Below are positions 33,262 to 63,893 of a DNA stretch of 64,000 nucleotides, in pieces. The notes beneath the pieces were generated by a model that was not told the origin of the DNA, did not search any database, and saw only the letters and a program-made list of their open reading frames with translations. Each line of letters starts with the position of its first letter. Positions within the stretch are counted from its first letter, which is position 1. Source of the DNA: a virus. Made by a program: the position numbers and the translations under genes. The stretch covers positions 43,437 through 107,436 of IMG/VR virus record IMGVR_UViG_3300042554_002381, one strand, 5' to 3'.

Positions 33262-34917
33262 TTATCCTGCACAGCTTTCGCAGGACAAAATATCCCTGGC
33301 AAACTCTTGGGCTGCGTTTTGACCAAGTTGGTAGTAAAGGGTCTTTACTCCAAGTTCATGGGCTTTCAACAGCAGCGTGTTTACATCCCTGGTTGCTGTC
33401 TGAGGATGTATCATCAGATTCAGACTCTGTCCCTGGTCAATGTACTTCTGACGGGCGGCAGCCTGGATGATAATCTCCATTTGAGAGATCTCCATGAAAG
33501 TTCTGAAAACAAGCTTTTCATGATCGCTCAAAAAATCCAGGTGCTGCACAGATCCTGCGCGCTGAAGAATGGACTCCCAGACTTCAAAGTTGTCTTTGCC
33601 TTTTTGCTCAAGCAGCTGTTTTAGATAGGGGTTCTTGACAGCATGCTTGACCTTGGCGGTCTTCTTGATATAGTAGTTAGAGGTATAGGGTTCAACAGAC
33701 TGTGACTGCTGGCCCATAATAAACGACGACGAGGTGTTAGGTGCAACAGCTGTAAGTGTTGTGTGTCGTCTTCCATAACCTGCAAGTATTTCTGGTTCGC
33801 CAAAGCGTTCTGCCATTTCTTTAGACGCAGCCCATGCCTGGGTTTGAATTGTCTTGAAGATCTGCAAGTTGATCATCTTGGCTTCCATAGACTCAAAAGG
33901 AACCATCTTGCTCTGCAGGTAAGAGTGATAACCAGAGGCGCCAATGCCAATAGCGCGGTGGCGTCTGGCAAAACGAATGGCACGCTCAATAAATGGGGTG
34001 TCTTTGTAGCGGTTGATAAACTCTTCCAGTACAGCATCAGCAATATAGACAGCCACGCCGACCGCGTCAGTGTCTTTCCACTCATCAAACTTTACCAGGT
34101 TCATGCCTACCAGATCACATACAAAAGTTTCTTGTTCTGTAGAGGGAAGCAGGATCTCCGTGCACATGTTGGAAGAGTTGACCCTCATCTTTTTGTCTTT
34201 GTAAACGTCTACAGTATTGTTGTTTACGTTGTCTGTAAAGAAGATGTATGGGAAACCTGTCCTGTTGCGGGAGTCAAGCACCATGGCCCAGAGCTCACGC
34301 TTGTCCATGTCACCAGCTTTCATATCTTCAATCCACTTGTCAGAAACACAAACGCCAAAAGGAAAACGCTGCAACTTGTGTCCCTCACCGTTGATCCTCA
34401 AGAAATCTTTAATGTCACCGTGGGTGATGTCAAGATAAGCGGCAAACTCTCCTCGTCTGACGTTGCCTTGTGAGATGACATTCTTAGTGATGTCAAACAT
34501 TTGCATAAAGTGTACAGCCCCGTGGGTCTCCCCGCCGGTTGAAATAGCAGTACCTGCAGGACGCAGTTCACCAAAGTAGCCAGAGGTGCCTCCGCCAATC
34601 TTGCAAAGCATGCCTACTTCAGCATTGGCTCTGACAATAGACTCAATGCTATCAGAAATATGCGTGTTAAAGCAGGAGATGCCAGAGCCACGGTTGGTGC
34701 CAGCGTTGGACCACACTGGTGAAGGCAGCACATAGTAACCGCGTCTGATGTAGTCTTTGACTTTTGTTCTGAGTGTTTCATCATTGAACGTATCACCCAC
34801 CATATTACCTATGGATTCTATTCTGTCTTCAATACTTTCATTGTTGTGAAAATATCCTCGCCCCATAAATTCTTGACTGAGGGGTGTATACCAGTCCATG
34901 TAAGTTGTTGTTGTCAT
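33262..34917 (-). CDS. nrdA: Ribonucleotide reductase large subunit (class I)
   Basis: At 551 aa it is clearly shorter than the usual 700-760. It appears to lack the N-terminal ATP-cone domain and starts near the catalytic barrel. Catalytic features are present: Cys82 (SCFNTH), Asn250-Cys252-Glu254 (NMCTEI), Cys267 (ETFVCDL), and a C-terminal CESC pair for re-reduction by thioredoxin or glutaredoxin. It reduces ribonucleotides to deoxyribonucleotides with the radical supplied by NrdB, encoded immediately upstream (2-base gap). Loss of the ATP cone would free it from dATP inhibition, which suits a phage. Confidence 0.93.
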   Translation of the reverse strand: MTTTTYMDWYTPLSQEFMGRGYFHNNESIEDRIESIGNMVGDTFNDETLRTKVKDYIRRGYYVLPSPVWSNAGTNRGSGISCFNTHISDSIESIVRANAEVGMLCKIGGGTSGYFGELRPAGTAISTGGETHGAVHFMQMFDITKNVISQGNVRRGEFAAYLDITHGDIKDFLRINGEGHKLQRFPFGVCVSDKWIEDMKAGDMDKRELWAMVLDSRNRTGFPYIFFTDNVNNNTVDVYKDKKMRVNSSNMCTEILLPSTEQETFVCDLVGMNLVKFDEWKDTDAVGVAVYIADAVLEEFINRYKDTPFIERAIRFARRHRAIGIGASGYHSYLQSKMVPFESMEAKMINLQIFKTIQTQAWAASKEMAERFGEPEILAGYGRRHTTLTAVAPNTSSSFIMGQQSQSVEPYTSNYYIKKTAKVKHAVKNPYLKQLLEQKGKDNFEVWESILQRAGSVQHLDFLSDHEKLVFRTFMEISQMEIIIQAAARQKYIDQGQSLNLMIHPQTATRDVNTLLLKAHELGVKTLYYQLGQNAAQEFARDILSCESCAG

Positions 34918-34919
34918 GA

Positions 34920-35894
34920 TTAAAAAAGGTCTTTACTTGTAATAGATTTTTGAAACTTGGTGTAATTAGTTCCTTGAGTGTTAAAAAAGTCATTGCGTAC
35001 ATAGCCATAGATAGCTTCTACCATCCAGTAAAGTTCACTAAGCAAGTCCTGGTCAATCTCAAAAAGCTCCTCACCACCAATAGCAACAAGCGATGAGTTG
35101 AAACGCGACTTGATAAACTCAATAACAGCAGCCTTAGAGATAGAGTCTATCTCACCTTGCTCAAAGATCCAGTCAATGATGCGGACCTCTGCGTCAAAAG
35201 CTTTGTGACAAGCACGGTAGATCTTTTGATAGAAGTCTTCATCAAACCACTCAGGGTACTCTTTTTTGATCAGGTTGATCACGTGCATGCCCAGCTGAGC
35301 GTGAATGATCTCTTCTTTCATGGTAGCTTCAATGACAGTGTCAACTTCTTTGAGCAGATTCTTCTTTTCAATAAAAGACTTGACAATGGCAAATTGTGAA
35401 AACAGTGATACGTTCTCAATAAACATGGAGAATAGCGCCAGGTTCAGGGTGTAAACCTGCTTTGCGTTTTCTCCTGAGTTTTTTAGGTATTTGGTCAAAT
35501 ACTCTACGCGGCCCCCAATTACAGGGTTTTGCAGGAGCATGTCAAATTCGTCGTTCAGACCCAGTACCTCCAGCAGCTTGCTGTATGCTTCTGAGTGAAC
35601 GACCTCATTTTCTGCAAAGGTTATCCCTACAGAGTTAAATTCAGGCTTGGGGATGTGTTCTCCCAGCTTGGCCCAGAATGTTTTTACAGATACTTCTATC
35701 TGTGATATAGCCAATAAGGTTCTCTTTATAGCCTCTTTTTCGCGAGGCCTAAGTTTGTGTTTAAAGTCAAAGGCGTCAGAGTCAAAATTAAACTCTTCTA
35801 CGTCCCAACGACTGTGCTTGATAGCTTCCCTGAACTTTATTATTTCAGGGTACTCATATGGCTTGAAAGCCACACGTTTGTCAAAAATTCCCAT
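34920..35894 (-). CDS. nrdB: Ribonucleotide reductase small (radical) subunit
   Basis: I chose the ATG at 35894 (MGIFDKRVAFKPYEYPE), giving 324 aa. The longer frame adds 24 unconserved residues. Metal-ligand motifs of the ferritin-like fold are visible: ENEVVHSEAYS and KEEIIHAQLGMHV. It would make the tyrosyl radical needed by NrdA. It is the first gene of the operon and is preceded by a leader that contains a strong minus-strand terminator hairpin, so expression may be attenuated. Confidence 0.92.
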   Translation of the reverse strand: MGIFDKRVAFKPYEYPEIIKFREAIKHSRWDVEEFNFDSDAFDFKHKLRPREKEAIKRTLLAISQIEVSVKTFWAKLGEHIPKPEFNSVGITFAENEVVHSEAYSKLLEVLGLNDEFDMLLQNPVIGGRVEYLTKYLKNSGENAKQVYTLNLALFSMFIENVSLFSQFAIVKSFIEKKNLLKEVDTVIEATMKEEIIHAQLGMHVINLIKKEYPEWFDEDFYQKIYRACHKAFDAEVRIIDWIFEQGEIDSISKAAVIEFIKSRFNSSLVAIGGEELFEIDQDLLSELYWMVEAIYGYVRNDFFNTQGTNYTKFQKSITSKDLF

Positions 35895-35965
35895 ATATGT
35901 TAAATTTAGTTGAATATGTAAGCTGTTACATTTCAGAGGCTTGTTTTGAAAAAGCGGTAATGGCA

Positions 35966-36000
35966 AAAAAACCTGGTAAAGCTTTCACTTTCCAGGTCAT
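35966..36000 (-). terminator. Intrinsic terminator in the nrd leader
   Basis: Read on the minus strand, ACCTGG and AAAG pair with CTTT and CCAGGT around a short loop (one bulged base), followed directly by seven T. It sits about 70 bases upstream of the nrdB start with no gene on this strand behind it up to 36236. It could attenuate nrd transcription or end a small RNA. Confidence 0.7.
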
Positions 36001-40161: not shown

Positions 40162-42144
40162 TTAAAAAAATGTTAGTTGAATGTGTTGTTCTTTACGTGG
40201 TAATACAGGAGAAGACTTTTCTATCTTCTTGATCTCTTCATAGATCTTGTCCAAATAAAACTGTTCATTGACGTTGTACTCAGACCAGGGCTTGTTTTCA
40301 TGTCTGTTGAAAATGGTCTGAAGAGATCTACCACTTTCAAGTTGTATTTCCCTGCCATCAGGGTTGCACTTAATGATCTTACATCCTTGGTTGGATATGT
40401 AGTAACGAACTAGTTTCTGCAGTTTTTCTTTGATAAAGGATGTGTTTTCAATACTGTGTTTCATAAAGTACCAGTCACCTCTGAGCTTGGCACCAGCGCA
40501 ATAGTCATAAATATTGCGGTTGGCTTGTAAAAACTCAGCAGGATCAATGCCATGTACAAAGTAGGCGTACCAGGCCTTAGGAATAATCAGCATAGACTTG
40601 TTTTTGTGCAGTGGGAGCTCTTCAAATTCAAAACGTCCTTTGCACTTGGTCTTGCCAGAAGTATCTATGGCAATGTAGTTATTGACATCACCAATGATCA
40701 TCTTCTGATACTCTAATGTTTCCAGCTGCAGCTGTGTCATTGCTTCCCATTCTTTGCAAATCTGGTAAAACAATTCTTCGTATTGCTCATCAATAAGAAA
40801 CTCCAAACCGTCTGTGTTCTGCATCAATGGCTGTGCTCCTGGAATGCGTGTGGCGATCATCTCATAGAGCATGGTAAGTAGCAACTGGCCGTTGATCGTA
40901 ATCCTGAAAGTAAACTCAGGGTCATACAGGAACGAATACTTGTTCTTGCTCAAACCATAGGTAGAGTTCAGGATAATCTTGAACAGATAGTTCAGAGGAG
41001 AAGACTTAGGGTACTTTTTGCGCTCTTCAAAAAACCACTCATACAGCTCACAGAAATCATCTTTGGGGATGTGTGCAGGAGCCCAGCGGTTCTTGATAGC
41101 CAGGTTAGGATAGAACGACGTCACGTCTGCTGAGAGGATCTTTTTACCTTTGGCTGCAGTGTAGATGCCAGAGGCCGCACAACCGTGCAGTCCTCCCAGA
41201 CCATAGTCTGTGGGAACCTCTTTAAAGATCACACGGTGCTTGGGACCTTTGCTTTTTTGAGACTCTTCTGTTTCATCTAGGATCGCTGTATCTACCACCA
41301 GAGATTTAAACCAGTTGTGAACACTGGTAAACTCTGGGGTAGAAAAGCGTACATAGGGAAGTATGATGTCTCTGACAGTAACATGGGAGCGTTCTGTGCG
41401 CATGTTTTTAATGTCGCGCTTATCTCTGCTCAGCTTTTCACTTAAGAAGTGCAAGAACATCTCCTTGCTAATTCTGGGCTCTGAGGCACTGTACAGGGTA
41501 AGGTTATAGGTGGCACTAAGTTCAGCACGCAGATTGATCTGCGAAGCCATAATCTGCTCACCTTTAGCGTTTTTAAGCAAAAAGATCTGCTTGGTGGACG
41601 CCACGTCATTGATACAATACGACACTACTTTTTGCAAAGTGTCATCATCTCTTACGGGTTCATAGTGATGATGCGGCATCTCTTCAACGTTGTTCCAGTC
41701 CATTGAGAACTGAACCCATTTCAGAGAAGTACGCTTGGCATTACTGTCCCAGTGATTGAGTTTGAAGATGTCTACACAAGGTATGCTCAGCTTATATTCT
41801 GGATAGTCAAGAAACTCCTTGCGATCAGTTTTGCCAATGACATGTTGGGCGTACTGATAAATTGTCGTGGTAATTTCTTCTGCAGACCTGCCAGTAAAGT
41901 AGCCGGCGTTCTGCATGATGTACTCAGTAATCTGAGCATCAAAGGACAGGTTGTTGTAACCAAAGTGCCAGTCTTTGCTTGCTTGATTTTGCTTAAGAAA
42001 CTCCAAAAAAGCAGGTATGTCGTTTTTATCGCGATTGACAACAAAAACATGCTGCTCTTCGGAGTCATAAGCACTAAACACAGCAACAAAGCAGTTGACA
42101 ATGGTTTCATAGTCCATTACCCAGAACTTTCGCTGTTGTTGCAT
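40162..42144 (-). CDS. Family B DNA polymerase
   Basis: This is a compact 660-aa polymerase. Exonuclease motifs are Exo I Asp11/Glu13 (MDYET), Exo II FGYNNLSFD (Asp69) and Exo III YCINDVASTKQ (Asp180). Polymerase motif A is Asp340 in SADVTSFYP, motif B is KIILNSTYG (389-397), and motif C is NTDG (Asp445) in place of the usual DTD. All three polymerase motifs are intact apart from this NTDG form, which I recall in crAss-like phages. It overlaps the next gene by 1 base. It would copy the phage genome with proofreading. Confidence 0.93.
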   Translation of the reverse strand: MQQQRKFWVMDYETIVNCFVAVFSAYDSEEQHVFVVNRDKNDIPAFLEFLKQNQASKDWHFGYNNLSFDAQITEYIMQNAGYFTGRSAEEITTTIYQYAQHVIGKTDRKEFLDYPEYKLSIPCVDIFKLNHWDSNAKRTSLKWVQFSMDWNNVEEMPHHHYEPVRDDDTLQKVVSYCINDVASTKQIFLLKNAKGEQIMASQINLRAELSATYNLTLYSASEPRISKEMFLHFLSEKLSRDKRDIKNMRTERSHVTVRDIILPYVRFSTPEFTSVHNWFKSLVVDTAILDETEESQKSKGPKHRVIFKEVPTDYGLGGLHGCAASGIYTAAKGKKILSADVTSFYPNLAIKNRWAPAHIPKDDFCELYEWFFEERKKYPKSSPLNYLFKIILNSTYGLSKNKYSFLYDPEFTFRITINGQLLLTMLYEMIATRIPGAQPLMQNTDGLEFLIDEQYEELFYQICKEWEAMTQLQLETLEYQKMIIGDVNNYIAIDTSGKTKCKGRFEFEELPLHKNKSMLIIPKAWYAYFVHGIDPAEFLQANRNIYDYCAGAKLRGDWYFMKHSIENTSFIKEKLQKLVRYYISNQGCKIIKCNPDGREIQLESGRSLQTIFNRHENKPWSEYNVNEQFYLDKIYEEIKKIEKSSPVLPRKEQHIQLTFF

Positions 42145-54213: not shown

Positions 54214-55389
54214 TTAATTAGTGTTTGAGTTCTGCAAATTAGTAAAATTTATTGACAATTGCTCTGCATTAAACACTTTGTTAAGTTGTAGGTTGTTACT
54301 ATTACAATGTTTTAAGACACTACGGGTTTGTAATCTAGCATAATGCTCTGTTTGCTTTATTGAAGCATGACCAAGTAGAGTTTGCACTACTTCTATAGGT
54401 ATGCCATTGTTCAAATTAACTGTGGTGGCAAAAGTATGCCTAGCAACATGGGTAGTTAAATTTTTGGTAATTTGACATAGGTCAGCGATCTCTTTTAAGT
54501 AGCCATTCATCTTTTGATTTGAAACTTTAGGTAGAGAGTTGCCGTATTTTTCTAATATTTTCATTGCAATGTCATAAACATAGATCACAGCAGGTTCTGT
54601 GCTTTTTTTTCTATAAATTCTGACATAGTTGTTCTGAACATTTTCAGGTCTAAACAGCATCATATCTGCATAAGATAATCCTGTAAAACACTGAAATAAA
54701 AACAAATCTCTAACCTTATTCAGTCTGTCAACAAGAAACTTTTTACGCATTATTCTCTGCAACTCTGACTCTTCTAGAAAAACAGGTGTGTGTTTTTTCT
54801 TACCAAGTTTTATGCTATCAAAAGGGTTTTTTAACAAGTAACCTTTAACATTTACAGCATGTGTCATAATGCACTTGAAATAGGATAAATGCCTCATGGT
54901 AGAATTATGAGCATTAAACTGATGTAAAAAGTTTTGAAAATCATCAATAAACTCTCTGTTTACAGAAAGAATATTTACATCATCAGTTTGTCTTGCATTC
55001 AGAAAGTCTTTAAGCTGGTTCAAGGTAACCTGGTACTTTTGAACTGTTGACTGCAAAATGATACCTTTCTCAAACTTTGGAAAAATTTTAAGGTTCATGT
55101 ATTCTTGATAAGTTTCAATAAGATACCTGGTTTTGTGCTTTGACTGATAAATGCTTTTGATCGTTGCAGGATCTGCGGGTTCTTTTACAACAAGTCTTTC
55201 ATTAAAGATTTCAGAAAGCTCTTTGAAAACATTGCTTCTGTAAGCCTCTACCTTTTTACTGTTGCTGTTTACAATAAAATCCAGCTTAATTTCTGTTGAC
55301 TGTCCTGCATGACTCAGTCTGACATACAGGTTTTGCTTTTTTGACCCTGATTTACGCGTGAAAAAGTTGATAACCATATGCTTACACAT
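54214..55389 (-). CDS. int: Tyrosine recombinase (integrase), IntDOT-like
   Basis: This 391-aa protein (ATG at 55389; a second ATG at 55377 is possible) has the tyrosine-recombinase catalytic set: Lys261/262 in RKKST, His314-x-x-Arg317 (HVARHTFA), His341 (LLGHASIK) and Tyr350 (TEHYARL). The first Arg of the classic box is Ser239 (CFTGLSYADM). The same Ser replacement occurs in IntDOT of Bacteroides conjugative transposons, so activity is likely. It would integrate the phage at a tRNA-type site. The tRNA-3'-like attP lies directly upstream. Such an integrase suggests a temperate phage. Confidence 0.9.
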   Translation of the reverse strand: MCKHMVINFFTRKSGSKKQNLYVRLSHAGQSTEIKLDFIVNSNSKKVEAYRSNVFKELSEIFNERLVVKEPADPATIKSIYQSKHKTRYLIETYQEYMNLKIFPKFEKGIILQSTVQKYQVTLNQLKDFLNARQTDDVNILSVNREFIDDFQNFLHQFNAHNSTMRHLSYFKCIMTHAVNVKGYLLKNPFDSIKLGKKKHTPVFLEESELQRIMRKKFLVDRLNKVRDLFLFQCFTGLSYADMMLFRPENVQNNYVRIYRKKSTEPAVIYVYDIAMKILEKYGNSLPKVSNQKMNGYLKEIADLCQITKNLTTHVARHTFATTVNLNNGIPIEVVQTLLGHASIKQTEHYARLQTRSVLKHCNSNNLQLNKVFNAEQLSINFTNLQNSNTN

Positions 55390-61683: not shown

Positions 61684-62556
61684 TTAAAAAATGTAACGAA
61701 TGTAATTCCAGGGGATGATGCTTTCATGCAACTTTCTAAAATCAGCAATGTAACCAGCTTTCAAAGAAGCTTTGTACCTTAGGTTTACACCTCCATATTG
61801 AGATACTTTATCTTCTTGTATCTCAGGGCGCCAGATAAGACTCTCACCGGTGGCATTGTTTTTAAGGTTTTGATGATGTCTTACTGTGTTATGCGTAAGA
61901 AAAATAACTTCTGCTTTTACAGCAGGTTTGTACTCGTCTTTGACAGCATTGTTCAAGTCTTCAAATAATTTCTGATAGTTTTCAAGCCAGTTATCTGTTA
62001 CGATTACTGGTGAAAAGTTCACATGTACATCATAACCTGCCTCAACAAACATGTTGATAGCATCAAGACGTTCTTGAATGCTTGATGTTTCAGGCTCAAG
62101 CACATCTGCGTAGCATTGTGGCATTAAAGAAAACCTGATGCGTATTTTTTTCTGAGGATTGTATAACAACAGCTTCTTGTTCACATACTTGGTGGCAAAA
62201 GAACCCATAATTTTTTCGTTCATCTTGAAAAAATCAAATATCTGTTGCCAGTTGTGGTACTTCAGGTGCAGTGCAAAGTCTTCGTTGCAGGAGATGTCAT
62301 AAGTAATCAGACTCTCATGCGTCTGGTTGGGTTTATCTACCACTGTAAAGCATGAGTGGTTATTGATAGCTGTCAGGATCTCTCCTGTGTTCTTGGCAAT
62401 GTCCAAACCTTCAGGTTTGTGACGTTTCATGTAGCAGTTGTGTGTCAAAATACCATTTGCAAAAAAGTTTTCATTTTGTAGTACAGAAAAGTTGACAACC
62501 ATTGTTTTTTTTTGTATCTTATTAATGTGCTGAATCTTCTTATATTTTAAATCCAT
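61684..62556 (-). CDS. Radical-SAM SPL-like protein, C-half with N-terminal C-intein
   Basis: This 290-aa ORF starts with a 40-aa C-intein and then the C-extein, which begins CYMKRHKPEG. It would join the 35-residue N-extein of the 63105-63506 ORF to give 285 aa in total. The spliced junction reads GCLFECTY-CYMKRH, an intact CxxxCxxC radical-SAM iron-sulfur site. The remaining sequence (ITYDISCNEDFALHLKYH, RIRFSLMPQCYADVLEP, VKAEVIFLTHNTVRHHQN, IIPWNYIRYIF) fits the spore-photoproduct-lyase-like proteins of Bacteroidetes phages. The exact reaction in phages is not known; DNA photoproduct repair is one possibility. The start codon overlaps the opposing HNH ORF start in CATG. Confidence 0.88.
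   Translation of the reverse strand: MDLKYKKIQHINKIQKKTMVVNFSVLQNENFFANGILTHNCYMKRHKPEGLDIAKNTGEILTAINNHSCFTVVDKPNQTHESLITYDISCNEDFALHLKYHNWQQIFDFFKMNEKIMGSFATKYVNKKLLLYNPQKKIRIRFSLMPQCYADVLEPETSSIQERLDAINMFVEAGYDVHVNFSPVIVTDNWLENYQKLFEDLNNAVKDEYKPAVKAEVIFLTHNTVRHHQNLKNNATGESLIWRPEIQEDKVSQYGGVNLRYKASLKAGYIADFRKLHESIIPWNYIRYIF
62437..62556 (-). other. C-intein (IntC, 40 aa)
   Basis: The segment ends VVNFSVLQNENFFANGILTH plus Asn, followed by Cys+1. This is intein block F/G: the NFFANGIL-HN|C pattern with the terminal Asn needed for cyclisation. The size (about 40 aa) fits natural C-inteins. The first residue is a Met at 62556, so it is made as a separate chain. Confidence 0.92.
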
Positions 62557-63385
62557 GAGCTGTCTAAATTGTGGTAGAATTACAAAAAAGGATACATCCT
62601 ATTGCAACACTACCTGTGAAACTAATTTCAAAAACCTTTTCAACCAACCTGTAAAACCTGCATTTAGAACTTTTCAAGAAGCAGGAAAGTTTTACAACAA
62701 AGATTTCAGAACTGTAAAACAGTTTGAAGGAATGTTGTTTACTATTGACAAAACTATACCTGCTGCTCATACTAAATGGGTTACTTGTAAAATATGTGGT
62801 GAATCATCTTCATCTTCATCAGCAAGAAGTGGTTATTGTAGTGATTGCACTTCTAAAGGTTTAGGTAAACAAAACCAAGGAAAACATATTTCTAAAATGT
62901 ATCAAGGTTCAGGTAATCCTAACTTTCTAGATGGTACTACTCTTTCAACTGAGTATCAGACTAATGATTGGTATAAACTCAAAAAAGAGTTGAACTTTAC
63001 TCATTGTGCTCTAACAAACAAGGAGGAAGAAATAGATTATCACCACATATTGCCAAGATGGTTTTGCAAACTTGCAGACATTGATATCTTTGATCCACAT
63101 AACATCATAGGGTTAAACCGTGAATATCACAAAGCAGTTCATCATCTTCAGTTAGATGTTGTGCTTCTACCCATCCTCTATTCTTTGTATAAAAAGGATG
63201 CTCGCCAGTTACGCTCACGGTTTGTGAGTCTACTTCAATTACATAAAGTTCATCAGTTTCCCGTTGACCAACTGCAGTCACAAAGTCTGTTTGCACTTTC
63301 TCGCTATCCAGGGAGAAAGAAATTACTGCATCTCCTTCCTGAATTTCTTCAGCCTTTTTTGGCCCAGAAGGAGTTGCAATCATAG
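62555..63385 (+). CDS. HNH endonuclease in the intein gap, opposite strand
   Basis: This 276-aa ORF has two zinc-ribbon-like regions (CLNCG...CNTTC and CKICG...CSDC) and a NUMOD3-like GSGNPNFLDG. An HNH core follows with FTHCALTNKEEEIDYHHILP, DPHNIIGLNREYHKAVHH (HH163-164, Asn183, His192). The core ends near 63140. The last about 75 residues are encoded antisense to the N-intein and have a shadow-like composition. As the only gene in the 548-bp gap between intein halves, it is likely the homing endonuclease of the element. Its ATG shares CATG with the C-half start. Confidence 0.8.
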   Translation: MSCLNCGRITKKDTSYCNTTCETNFKNLFNQPVKPAFRTFQEAGKFYNKDFRTVKQFEGMLFTIDKTIPAAHTKWVTCKICGESSSSSSARSGYCSDCTSKGLGKQNQGKHISKMYQGSGNPNFLDGTTLSTEYQTNDWYKLKKELNFTHCALTNKEEEIDYHHILPRWFCKLADIDIFDPHNIIGLNREYHKAVHHLQLDVVLLPILYSLYKKDARQLRSRFVSLLQLHKVHQFPVDQLQSQSLFALSRYPGRKKLLHLLPEFLQPFLAQKELQS

Positions 63386-63506
63386 TGTCAAGAGTTACGC
63401 AATAAGTACACTCAAACAGACATCCATGCCCAAAGCTGGGTGAGATGAAGTCTGTGCTTCTGCCACTTTCTCTTATAAGCATGGATTTTCTGTTAACTAT
63501 TTTCAT
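63105..63506 (-). CDS. Radical-SAM SPL-like protein, N-half with C-terminal N-intein
   Basis: This 133-aa ORF contains a 35-residue N-extein (MKIVNRKSMLIRESGRSTDF..., SFGHGCLFECTY) followed by a 98-aa N-intein from Cys36. Cys29 and Cys33 are the first two cysteines of CxxxCxxC; the third comes from the C-half. It overlaps a zinc-ribbon gene upstream by 14 bases. Trans-splicing with the 61684-62556 product would rebuild the enzyme. Without splicing the iron-sulfur site is broken. Confidence 0.88.
   Translation of the reverse strand: MKIVNRKSMLIRESGRSTDFISPSFGHGCLFECTYCVTLDTMIATPSGPKKAEEIQEGDAVISFSLDSEKVQTDFVTAVGQRETDELYVIEVDSQTVSVTGEHPFYTKNRGWVEAQHLTEDDELLCDIHGLTL
63108..63401 (-). other. N-intein (IntN, 98 aa)
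   Basis: It starts CVTLDTMIATPSGPKKAEEI with the block A Cys1 and the GD.VISF strand pattern of Hint domains. Block B is SVTGEHPFYTKNRGWVEAQH (Thr and His of the TxxH motif), followed by LTEDDELL. The length fits a natural N-intein that stops before the endonuclease/linker region. There is an early stop and no endonuclease in frame. Confidence 0.92.
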
Positions 63507-63702
63507 TCAGTTTGCTTTGAATAAGTTTCCACTCTGTGTCTAGTGCTTCATCGTAGCTGAAGTCTTTGCCACATTTGCCACAGGTGATGTGTTCAGCGTG
63601 CATCACACCAACTGTGTCCTCCTCAGTAATGGAAGGCTTACAGTTCTTGCAAGTACACGCATTCGGTGTTTCGCAATGCGGACAGTAAAAAGCTCCCATC
63701 AT
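63493..63702 (-). CDS. Small zinc-ribbon protein, 69 aa
   Basis: This 69-aa protein has CPHCETPNACTCKNC and CGKCGKDFSYDEA, four CxxC/CxC pairs that would bind one or two zinc ions. It overlaps the N-half of the radical-SAM gene by 14 bases and the 64-aa gene by 4 bases. Likely a nucleic-acid or protein-interaction module. No known family name. Confidence 0.65.
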   Translation of the reverse strand: MMGAFYCPHCETPNACTCKNCKPSITEEDTVGVMHAEHITCGKCGKDFSYDEALDTEWKLIQSKLNENS

Positions 63703-63893
63703 AACCAGCCAGGTTTAAGGTGACCAATTTCAGTTCGTTGTCCAGTGTAGCTTTGATAATCATCCCAGTTACCAGCACAGTTGTACACTACAAATGCGTG
63801 GTAAGGGTCTTCTGAAAAAGACTTGATGATACCATGTTCTTTAGCTCCTTTGTGCACATATGTGACTTTGGTGCCTTCAGTCATTAATTGCAT
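63699..63893 (-). CDS. Conserved small phage protein, 64 aa
   Basis: This 64-aa protein (ATG at 63893, or 63884) has GTKVTYVHKGAKEHGIIKSF, HAFVVYNCAGNWDDYQSYTG and TEIGHLKPGW. It matches a small phage family that I recall with the pattern GTKVxY...HAFVVYxC.xxWDxYxxYTGxRTxxxxLxxGW. Its role is not known. It lies just after a strong terminator and starts the operon that contains the fractured gene. Confidence 0.7.
   Translation of the reverse strand: MQLMTEGTKVTYVHKGAKEHGIIKSFSEDPYHAFVVYNCAGNWDDYQSYTGQRTEIGHLKPGWL

Follow-up and report, generated by a model that had tools for sequence, protein, structure and literature searches.

What keeps a homing endonuclease gene in place once it has filled its sites, when such genes are then expected to decay? 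The question is raised by a locus at positions 61684-63506 of the window, by which we mean the whole 64,000-nucleotide stretch of the viral record IMGVR_UViG_3300042554_002381 that was analyzed and to which all coordinates refer. Here, a gene for a spore photoproduct lyase (SPL)-like radical S-adenosylmethionine (SAM) enzyme is broken in two by a predicted split intein, and a putative HNH-type endonuclease gene on the opposite strand runs antisense across almost all of the N-intein. We put at roughly 0.85 the probability that this is a fractured-gene phage homing element whose endonuclease gene is locked in by overprinting.

The three open reading frames (ORFs) lie where the initial annotation had placed them. 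On the minus strand, the N-half (133 amino acids) consists of a 35-residue N-extein (63402..63506) ending in GCLFECTY and a 98-residue N-intein followed by a stop codon (63105..63401), while the C-half (290 amino acids), on the same strand, consists of a 40-residue C-intein (62437..62556) and a 250-residue C-extein (61684..62436) beginning with CYMK. The N-intein starts with Cys1, carries the block B motif TGEH (VTGEHPFYT), and ends in DDELLCDI, like NrdJ-1; the C-intein ends in FFANGILTHN, placing His-Asn directly before Cys+1. An N-intein from Cys36 and a C-intein ending in HN before Cys had been proposed from the sequence, and both score above the cut-offs of their profiles: the N-half matches TIGR01445 (intein_Nterm) at 30.6 bits from Cys36 (cut-off, 24.5), the C-half matches TIGR01443 (intein_Cterm) at 21.1 with its end at ILTHN/C41 (cut-off, 15.6), and, once joined, the halves score 53 bits against PF14890 (cut-off, 35.8). 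The best solved relatives in the PDB are a bacterial intein-like domain, NrdJ-1, and the Hint-like domain of an ADP-ribosyltransferase. By residues (C36, TGEH, THN, and C41 in the window; Cys1, TxEH, HN, and Cys+1 across the sampled copies) and by profiles, the separately encoded halves are a class 1 split intein, for which trans-splicing is predicted. An intron was considered and rejected, as the window has no Rfam match and the intein profiles are clear.

The exteins bear out the suggestion that the host gene is spore photoproduct lyase-like, since they match TIGR03886 better joined (E = 2.5e-91) than apart (N-half, 1.4e-7; C-half, 4e-77). The joined score of 306 bits is below the equivalog cut-off of 437.55, and we therefore call the enzyme SPL-like rather than a certified family member. 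The N-extein supplies two of the three cysteines of the [4Fe-4S] cluster (C29 and C33) and ends in a tyrosine that aligns with Y96 of G. thermodenitrificans SPL, and the C-extein begins with the third cluster cysteine and a tyrosine aligned with Y98. In this alignment, the break falls between the Y96-aligned tyrosine and the third cysteine of CxxxCxYC, so that neither half alone carries the whole iron-sulfur site. C90 of the C-half (YDISC) aligns with Cys140, the hydrogen donor of SPL, and the corresponding cysteine within YDxxC is present in 27 of the 29 rows with an intein and in 59 of the 60 without one. The closest solved relatives are spore photoproduct lyases, and the model of an intein-free homolog (L002; predicted local distance difference test [pLDDT] score, 82; predicted template modeling score [pTM], 0.86) superimposes on 4fhf with a TM score of 0.84 (E = 9e-16). 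The radical-SAM motif CxxxCxxC, the hydrogen-donor cysteine, and the SPL fold are thus all found. The enzyme shares with 4fhf and TIGR03886 proteins the fold, CxxxCxYC, the flanking tyrosines, and the aligned hydrogen-donor cysteine, but differs from them in being phage-borne and only about 285 amino acids long, with a shorter N terminus and a score below the TIGR03886 cut-off.

The third frame, a candidate homing endonuclease gene of 831 bp (276 amino acids; 62555..63385), lies on the plus strand and encodes an HNH core at about amino acids 151 to 197, preceded by two Cys4 clusters (C3/C6/C17/C21 and C78/C81/C95/C98) and followed by a C-terminal tail at about amino acids 199 to 276. The opposite-strand HNH frame claimed in the initial annotation held up, and its His/Asn/His motif is conserved, with H163, H164, N183, N188, H192, H196, and H197 invariant in 26 HNH sequences. 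Its placement between the halves needs revision: 281 bp of the 831-bp gene (63105..63385) run across the N-half in antisense, where N-half intein codons face the HNH gene from amino acid 184 onward, including the end of the core with H192, H196, and H197, and the divergent start codons of the HNH gene (plus strand) and the C-half (minus strand) overlap in a CATG at 62554..62557. The element measures exactly 965 bp and is inserted right before the third cysteine codon (CxxxCxY/C). A fractured-gene layout had also been proposed, and it is what we find, with an enzyme gene broken at a conserved site and an endonuclease gene between the intein halves, the endonuclease label resting on weak HNH matches and the HNH motif.

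IMG/VR was scanned with the C-half, the HNH protein, and the N-half. The complete module occurs at the same site in 37 contigs including the window; 36 full modules were tabulated, and an additional divergent copy, L163, shares their layout. An assembly artifact, raised earlier as a possible objection, is ruled out by the 36 other contigs that share the break and its layout. In all 36 tabulated modules, the N-intein starts with Cys at the identical codon, the HNH frame is intact, the HNH start lies one base from the C-half start, and the HNH stop lies 16 to 25 bases within the N-intein, giving an antisense overlap of 272 to 284 bp; in two copies (L093 and L100), the shared HNH ATG is gone, but, as read from sequence, an in-frame ATG remains three codons upstream. 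All HNH relatives found that reach the flanking gene belong to this module at this site, and searches of the cellular genome collection and of the INPHARED phages gave no HNH relative. The C-half scan gave 64 loci, nearly all intein-free, and about 60 uninterrupted homologs, a class that the initial annotation had advised seeking, read straight through at TY/CY. The module is widespread and site-specific among these contigs of uncultured viruses, and its architecture and HNH gene are retained in the sampled full copies.

Its mobility is indicated by comparison with four intein-free loci (L002 to L005) that are about 94 to 97% identical to the window across several kilobases. In the 180 bp next to the insertion on the C-side (62257..62436), the window shares only 79 to 80% identity with L002 and L005, a stretch in which these two loci are themselves 98% identical; between 180 bp and about 1 kb, all three are 98 to 99% identical. 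On the N-side, identity falls to 74 to 76% between about -420 and -90 and returns to 98 to 99% farther out, delimiting a divergent tract of about 420 bp (63402..63821) on that side and of about 600 bp in total (-420 to +180). This is the look expected of co-conversion after homing, and since only the window deviates on the C-side, it is most simply the recipient; no sampled locus closely matches its divergent flanks as a donor. On the lyase tree, 14 changes between presence and absence are needed, and well-supported branches force no fewer than 5 of these. Synonymous divergence (pS) is 0.65 to 0.74 in the exteins versus 0.39 to 0.48 within the element outside the overlap, as expected if the element moves between lineages. 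With an empty site in close relatives, a patchy spread, and flank co-conversion, the comparisons show the marks of a homing element and indicate that it is mobile.

The HNH and intein frames were compared across family copies, with confidence limits in brackets. In the overlap, the third position of each N-intein codon lies opposite the second position of an HNH codon, and no point change there can be silent in both frames. N-intein pS is 0.10 (0.06-0.15) in the overlap, compared with 0.39 (0.28-0.50) in the C-intein and 0.48 (0.44-0.53) in the HNH gene outside the overlap; nonsynonymous divergence (pN) is similar in all three despite this fall. Third-position diversity in the N-intein is 0.46 in codons 1 to 8 and 0.02 to 0.16 in codons 9 to 98, the drop starting at the overlap boundary. 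Relative to expectation, overlap substitutions that are silent for HNH occur 1.59-fold, those silent for the N-intein 0.93-fold, and those silent for neither 0.72-fold. These patterns indicate that selection is acting on both frames. The first 30 HNH codons (62558-62644 in the window), which on the opposite strand immediately precede the C-half ATG, also have unusually low third-position diversity family-wide (0.147 versus about 0.34), perhaps marking a start signal of the C-half.

Two other explanations of the overlap would dispense with part or all of the second protein. The HNH protein could end functionally near amino acid 198, with a tail that is open merely by chance on the strand opposite the N-intein: the match to phrog_8048 covers only amino acids 144 to 198, the tail alone has no significant match in PHROGs and no relatives were detected, and it models poorly. 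Yet none of the 36 tabulated copies has a stop where synonymous sampling predicts 4 to 5 per copy, a stop-free antisense frame arising by chance in 0.1 to 0.6% of synonymous versions of each of the four copies tested (P = 0.001 to 0.006); past the overlap boundary, silent sites in the N-intein are frozen, and substitutions are biased toward HNH-silent changes. A chance tail is already disfavored and seems to us very improbable, and the open frame together with the overlap constraint argues that the tail is very probably a genuine protein segment. Alternatively, the low synonymous divergence might reflect a nucleic acid signal in the N-intein DNA, such as an RNA structure or a regulatory site, and the low diversity at the HNH start shows that the element may hold such signals. 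That the tolerated changes obey HNH codon logic, that the HNH frame is open along its full length in every tabulated copy, and that Rfam gave no match in the window make this account highly unlikely.

The remaining alternatives concern whether the module still works and whether its parts belong together. A degenerate relic, in which splicing and lyase activity have both been lost, would fit two distant intein-bearing copies that lack the Cys140-aligned cysteine (YDIGS and YDIGV), but we regard it as quite unlikely, given the retained splicing residues, pN/pS ratios of about 0.27 in the C-intein and 0.24 in the N-extein, and the recent transfer into the lineage of the window. Free-standing phage endonucleases commonly adjoin genes that they leave uninterrupted (PMC10448857), and the HNH gene could likewise be a passenger that homes elsewhere on its own and is merely parked between the halves. 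The chances of this appear very slim, as the relatives found that reach the flanking gene all belong to this module and site, searches of the cellular and INPHARED collections gave none, and the divergent tract encloses the intein site.

In the homing element that we favor, the two gene halves would be made as separate proteins, and the N- and C-inteins would associate and trans-splice, restoring CxxxCxYC and a complete iron-sulfur site. During coinfection, the HNH protein would cleave alleles of the gene that lack the intein, at or close to TY/CY, and repair from the intein-bearing copy would install the element and its flanks. With the last third of the HNH gene on the complementary strand of the N-intein, loss or erosion of the HNH gene would usually damage the N-intein; because the host gene needs the N-intein and the two share DNA, the endonuclease gene would be held in place.

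Fractured genes with split inteins around free-standing endonuclease genes, as in gp41-1 and NrdJ-1, were reportedly described by Dassa et al. in 2009. Like this element, they have a phage gene for an enzyme interrupted at a conserved motif, with intein halves encoded separately and a separate endonuclease gene between them. At an NrdJ-1 locus (L166), however, the intervening gene, an endonuclease by eye with no Pfam match, is on the same strand as the halves, and across this locus and 44 gp41-1 loci the larger genes between the halves are same-strand, overlap little or not at all, and vary in size and kind. Of the 44 gp41-1 loci, 6 lack any ORF of 80 or more amino acids between the halves and have only a gap of the 235-bp class, whereas in the lyase module the HNH gene is antisense, lies over about 280 bp of the N-intein, and is present in every full copy sampled. 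Fractured helicase loci of the gp41-1 type are frequent in IMG/VR (L167-L216). The overlap and the contrast between the always intact HNH gene and the gp41-1 loci led us to the idea that locking may have caused the retention of the HNH gene. Whether that gene escaped the cycle of gain, degeneration, and loss by overprinting, its C-terminal part having arisen on the antisense strand of the N-intein to which it is now locked, we consider an even bet.

Several points weigh against our interpretation. The HNH protein is below Pfam cut-offs (HNH_2, 13.6 bits versus 21), its best family match, phrog_8048 ("HNH endonuclease"), has an E value of only 6e-5, and its AlphaFold model is poor (pLDDT, 60; pTM, 0.30) and unusable for a fold search. 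Neither half has a clear ribosome-binding site or terminator, and the gp41-1 contrast involves only two families and may reflect age or sampling. A low-confidence candidate promoter for the HNH gene (TTGACA-17-TATCTT; 62492..62520, plus strand) lies within C-intein coding DNA; this sigma-70-like sequence scores no better than chance in the single sequence and is partly conserved across copies.

In the literature covered, which was partial and did not include the original fractured-gene description, we found no account of an endonuclease gene that overlaps an intein in antisense. The nearest published overlap found is the ShiLan element, a hidden out-of-frame HNH gene in a mycobacteriophage methylase (PMC11855218); there, too, a homing HNH gene overlaps another reading frame, but it uses the third frame of the methylase on the same strand, no intein was found, and the host frame stays open (PMC11855218). 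The profile NF038136, for intein-containing radical-SAM proteins of the Rv2578c family, can be aligned with the N-half through the cysteine motif and on into the intein, and an intein near the same motif was therefore already known, although NF038136 models one continuous protein of a different radical-SAM family and its matches are weak.

One contig (L066:4349-4462, minus strand) has a second, truncated N-extein, located some 0.4 kb upstream of its complete N-half, which reads GCLYNCSY and then stops exactly at the intein insertion site, resembling the scar of a wrongly repaired break. In another (L078:4338-5110, minus strand), a GIY-YIG endonuclease gene with NUMOD1 directly follows a truncated N-extein fragment just upstream of the split lyase and may be a second homing gene aimed at the lyase region. 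In a terminase-like gene with an intein (L136:3949-6344, plus strand), the N-part of the intein seems to be split by a gene on the same strand that carries a NUMOD3 motif and is GIY-YIG-like by eye; this seems to be another fractured or breaking intein locus. Elsewhere in the window are adjacent genes for the large and small subunits of ribonucleotide reductase (33262-35966, minus strand), an integrase-like gene (54214-55389), and, at 40162-42144, a gene for a DNA polymerase whose relationship to known phages is only distant. The lyase was found in no INPHARED phage; its best cellular relatives, which match without a break, are mostly, but not only, from Bacteroidota, a weak hint at the phage host.

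Our combined results describe a well-supported long antisense gene overlap, found in 37 contigs, in which selection can be measured in both frames. They also predict a natural split intein that is new and might be useful in protein engineering, as well as an enzyme whose iron-sulfur site should be complete only after splicing. The element offers a testable route by which a homing endonuclease gene could be shielded from loss.
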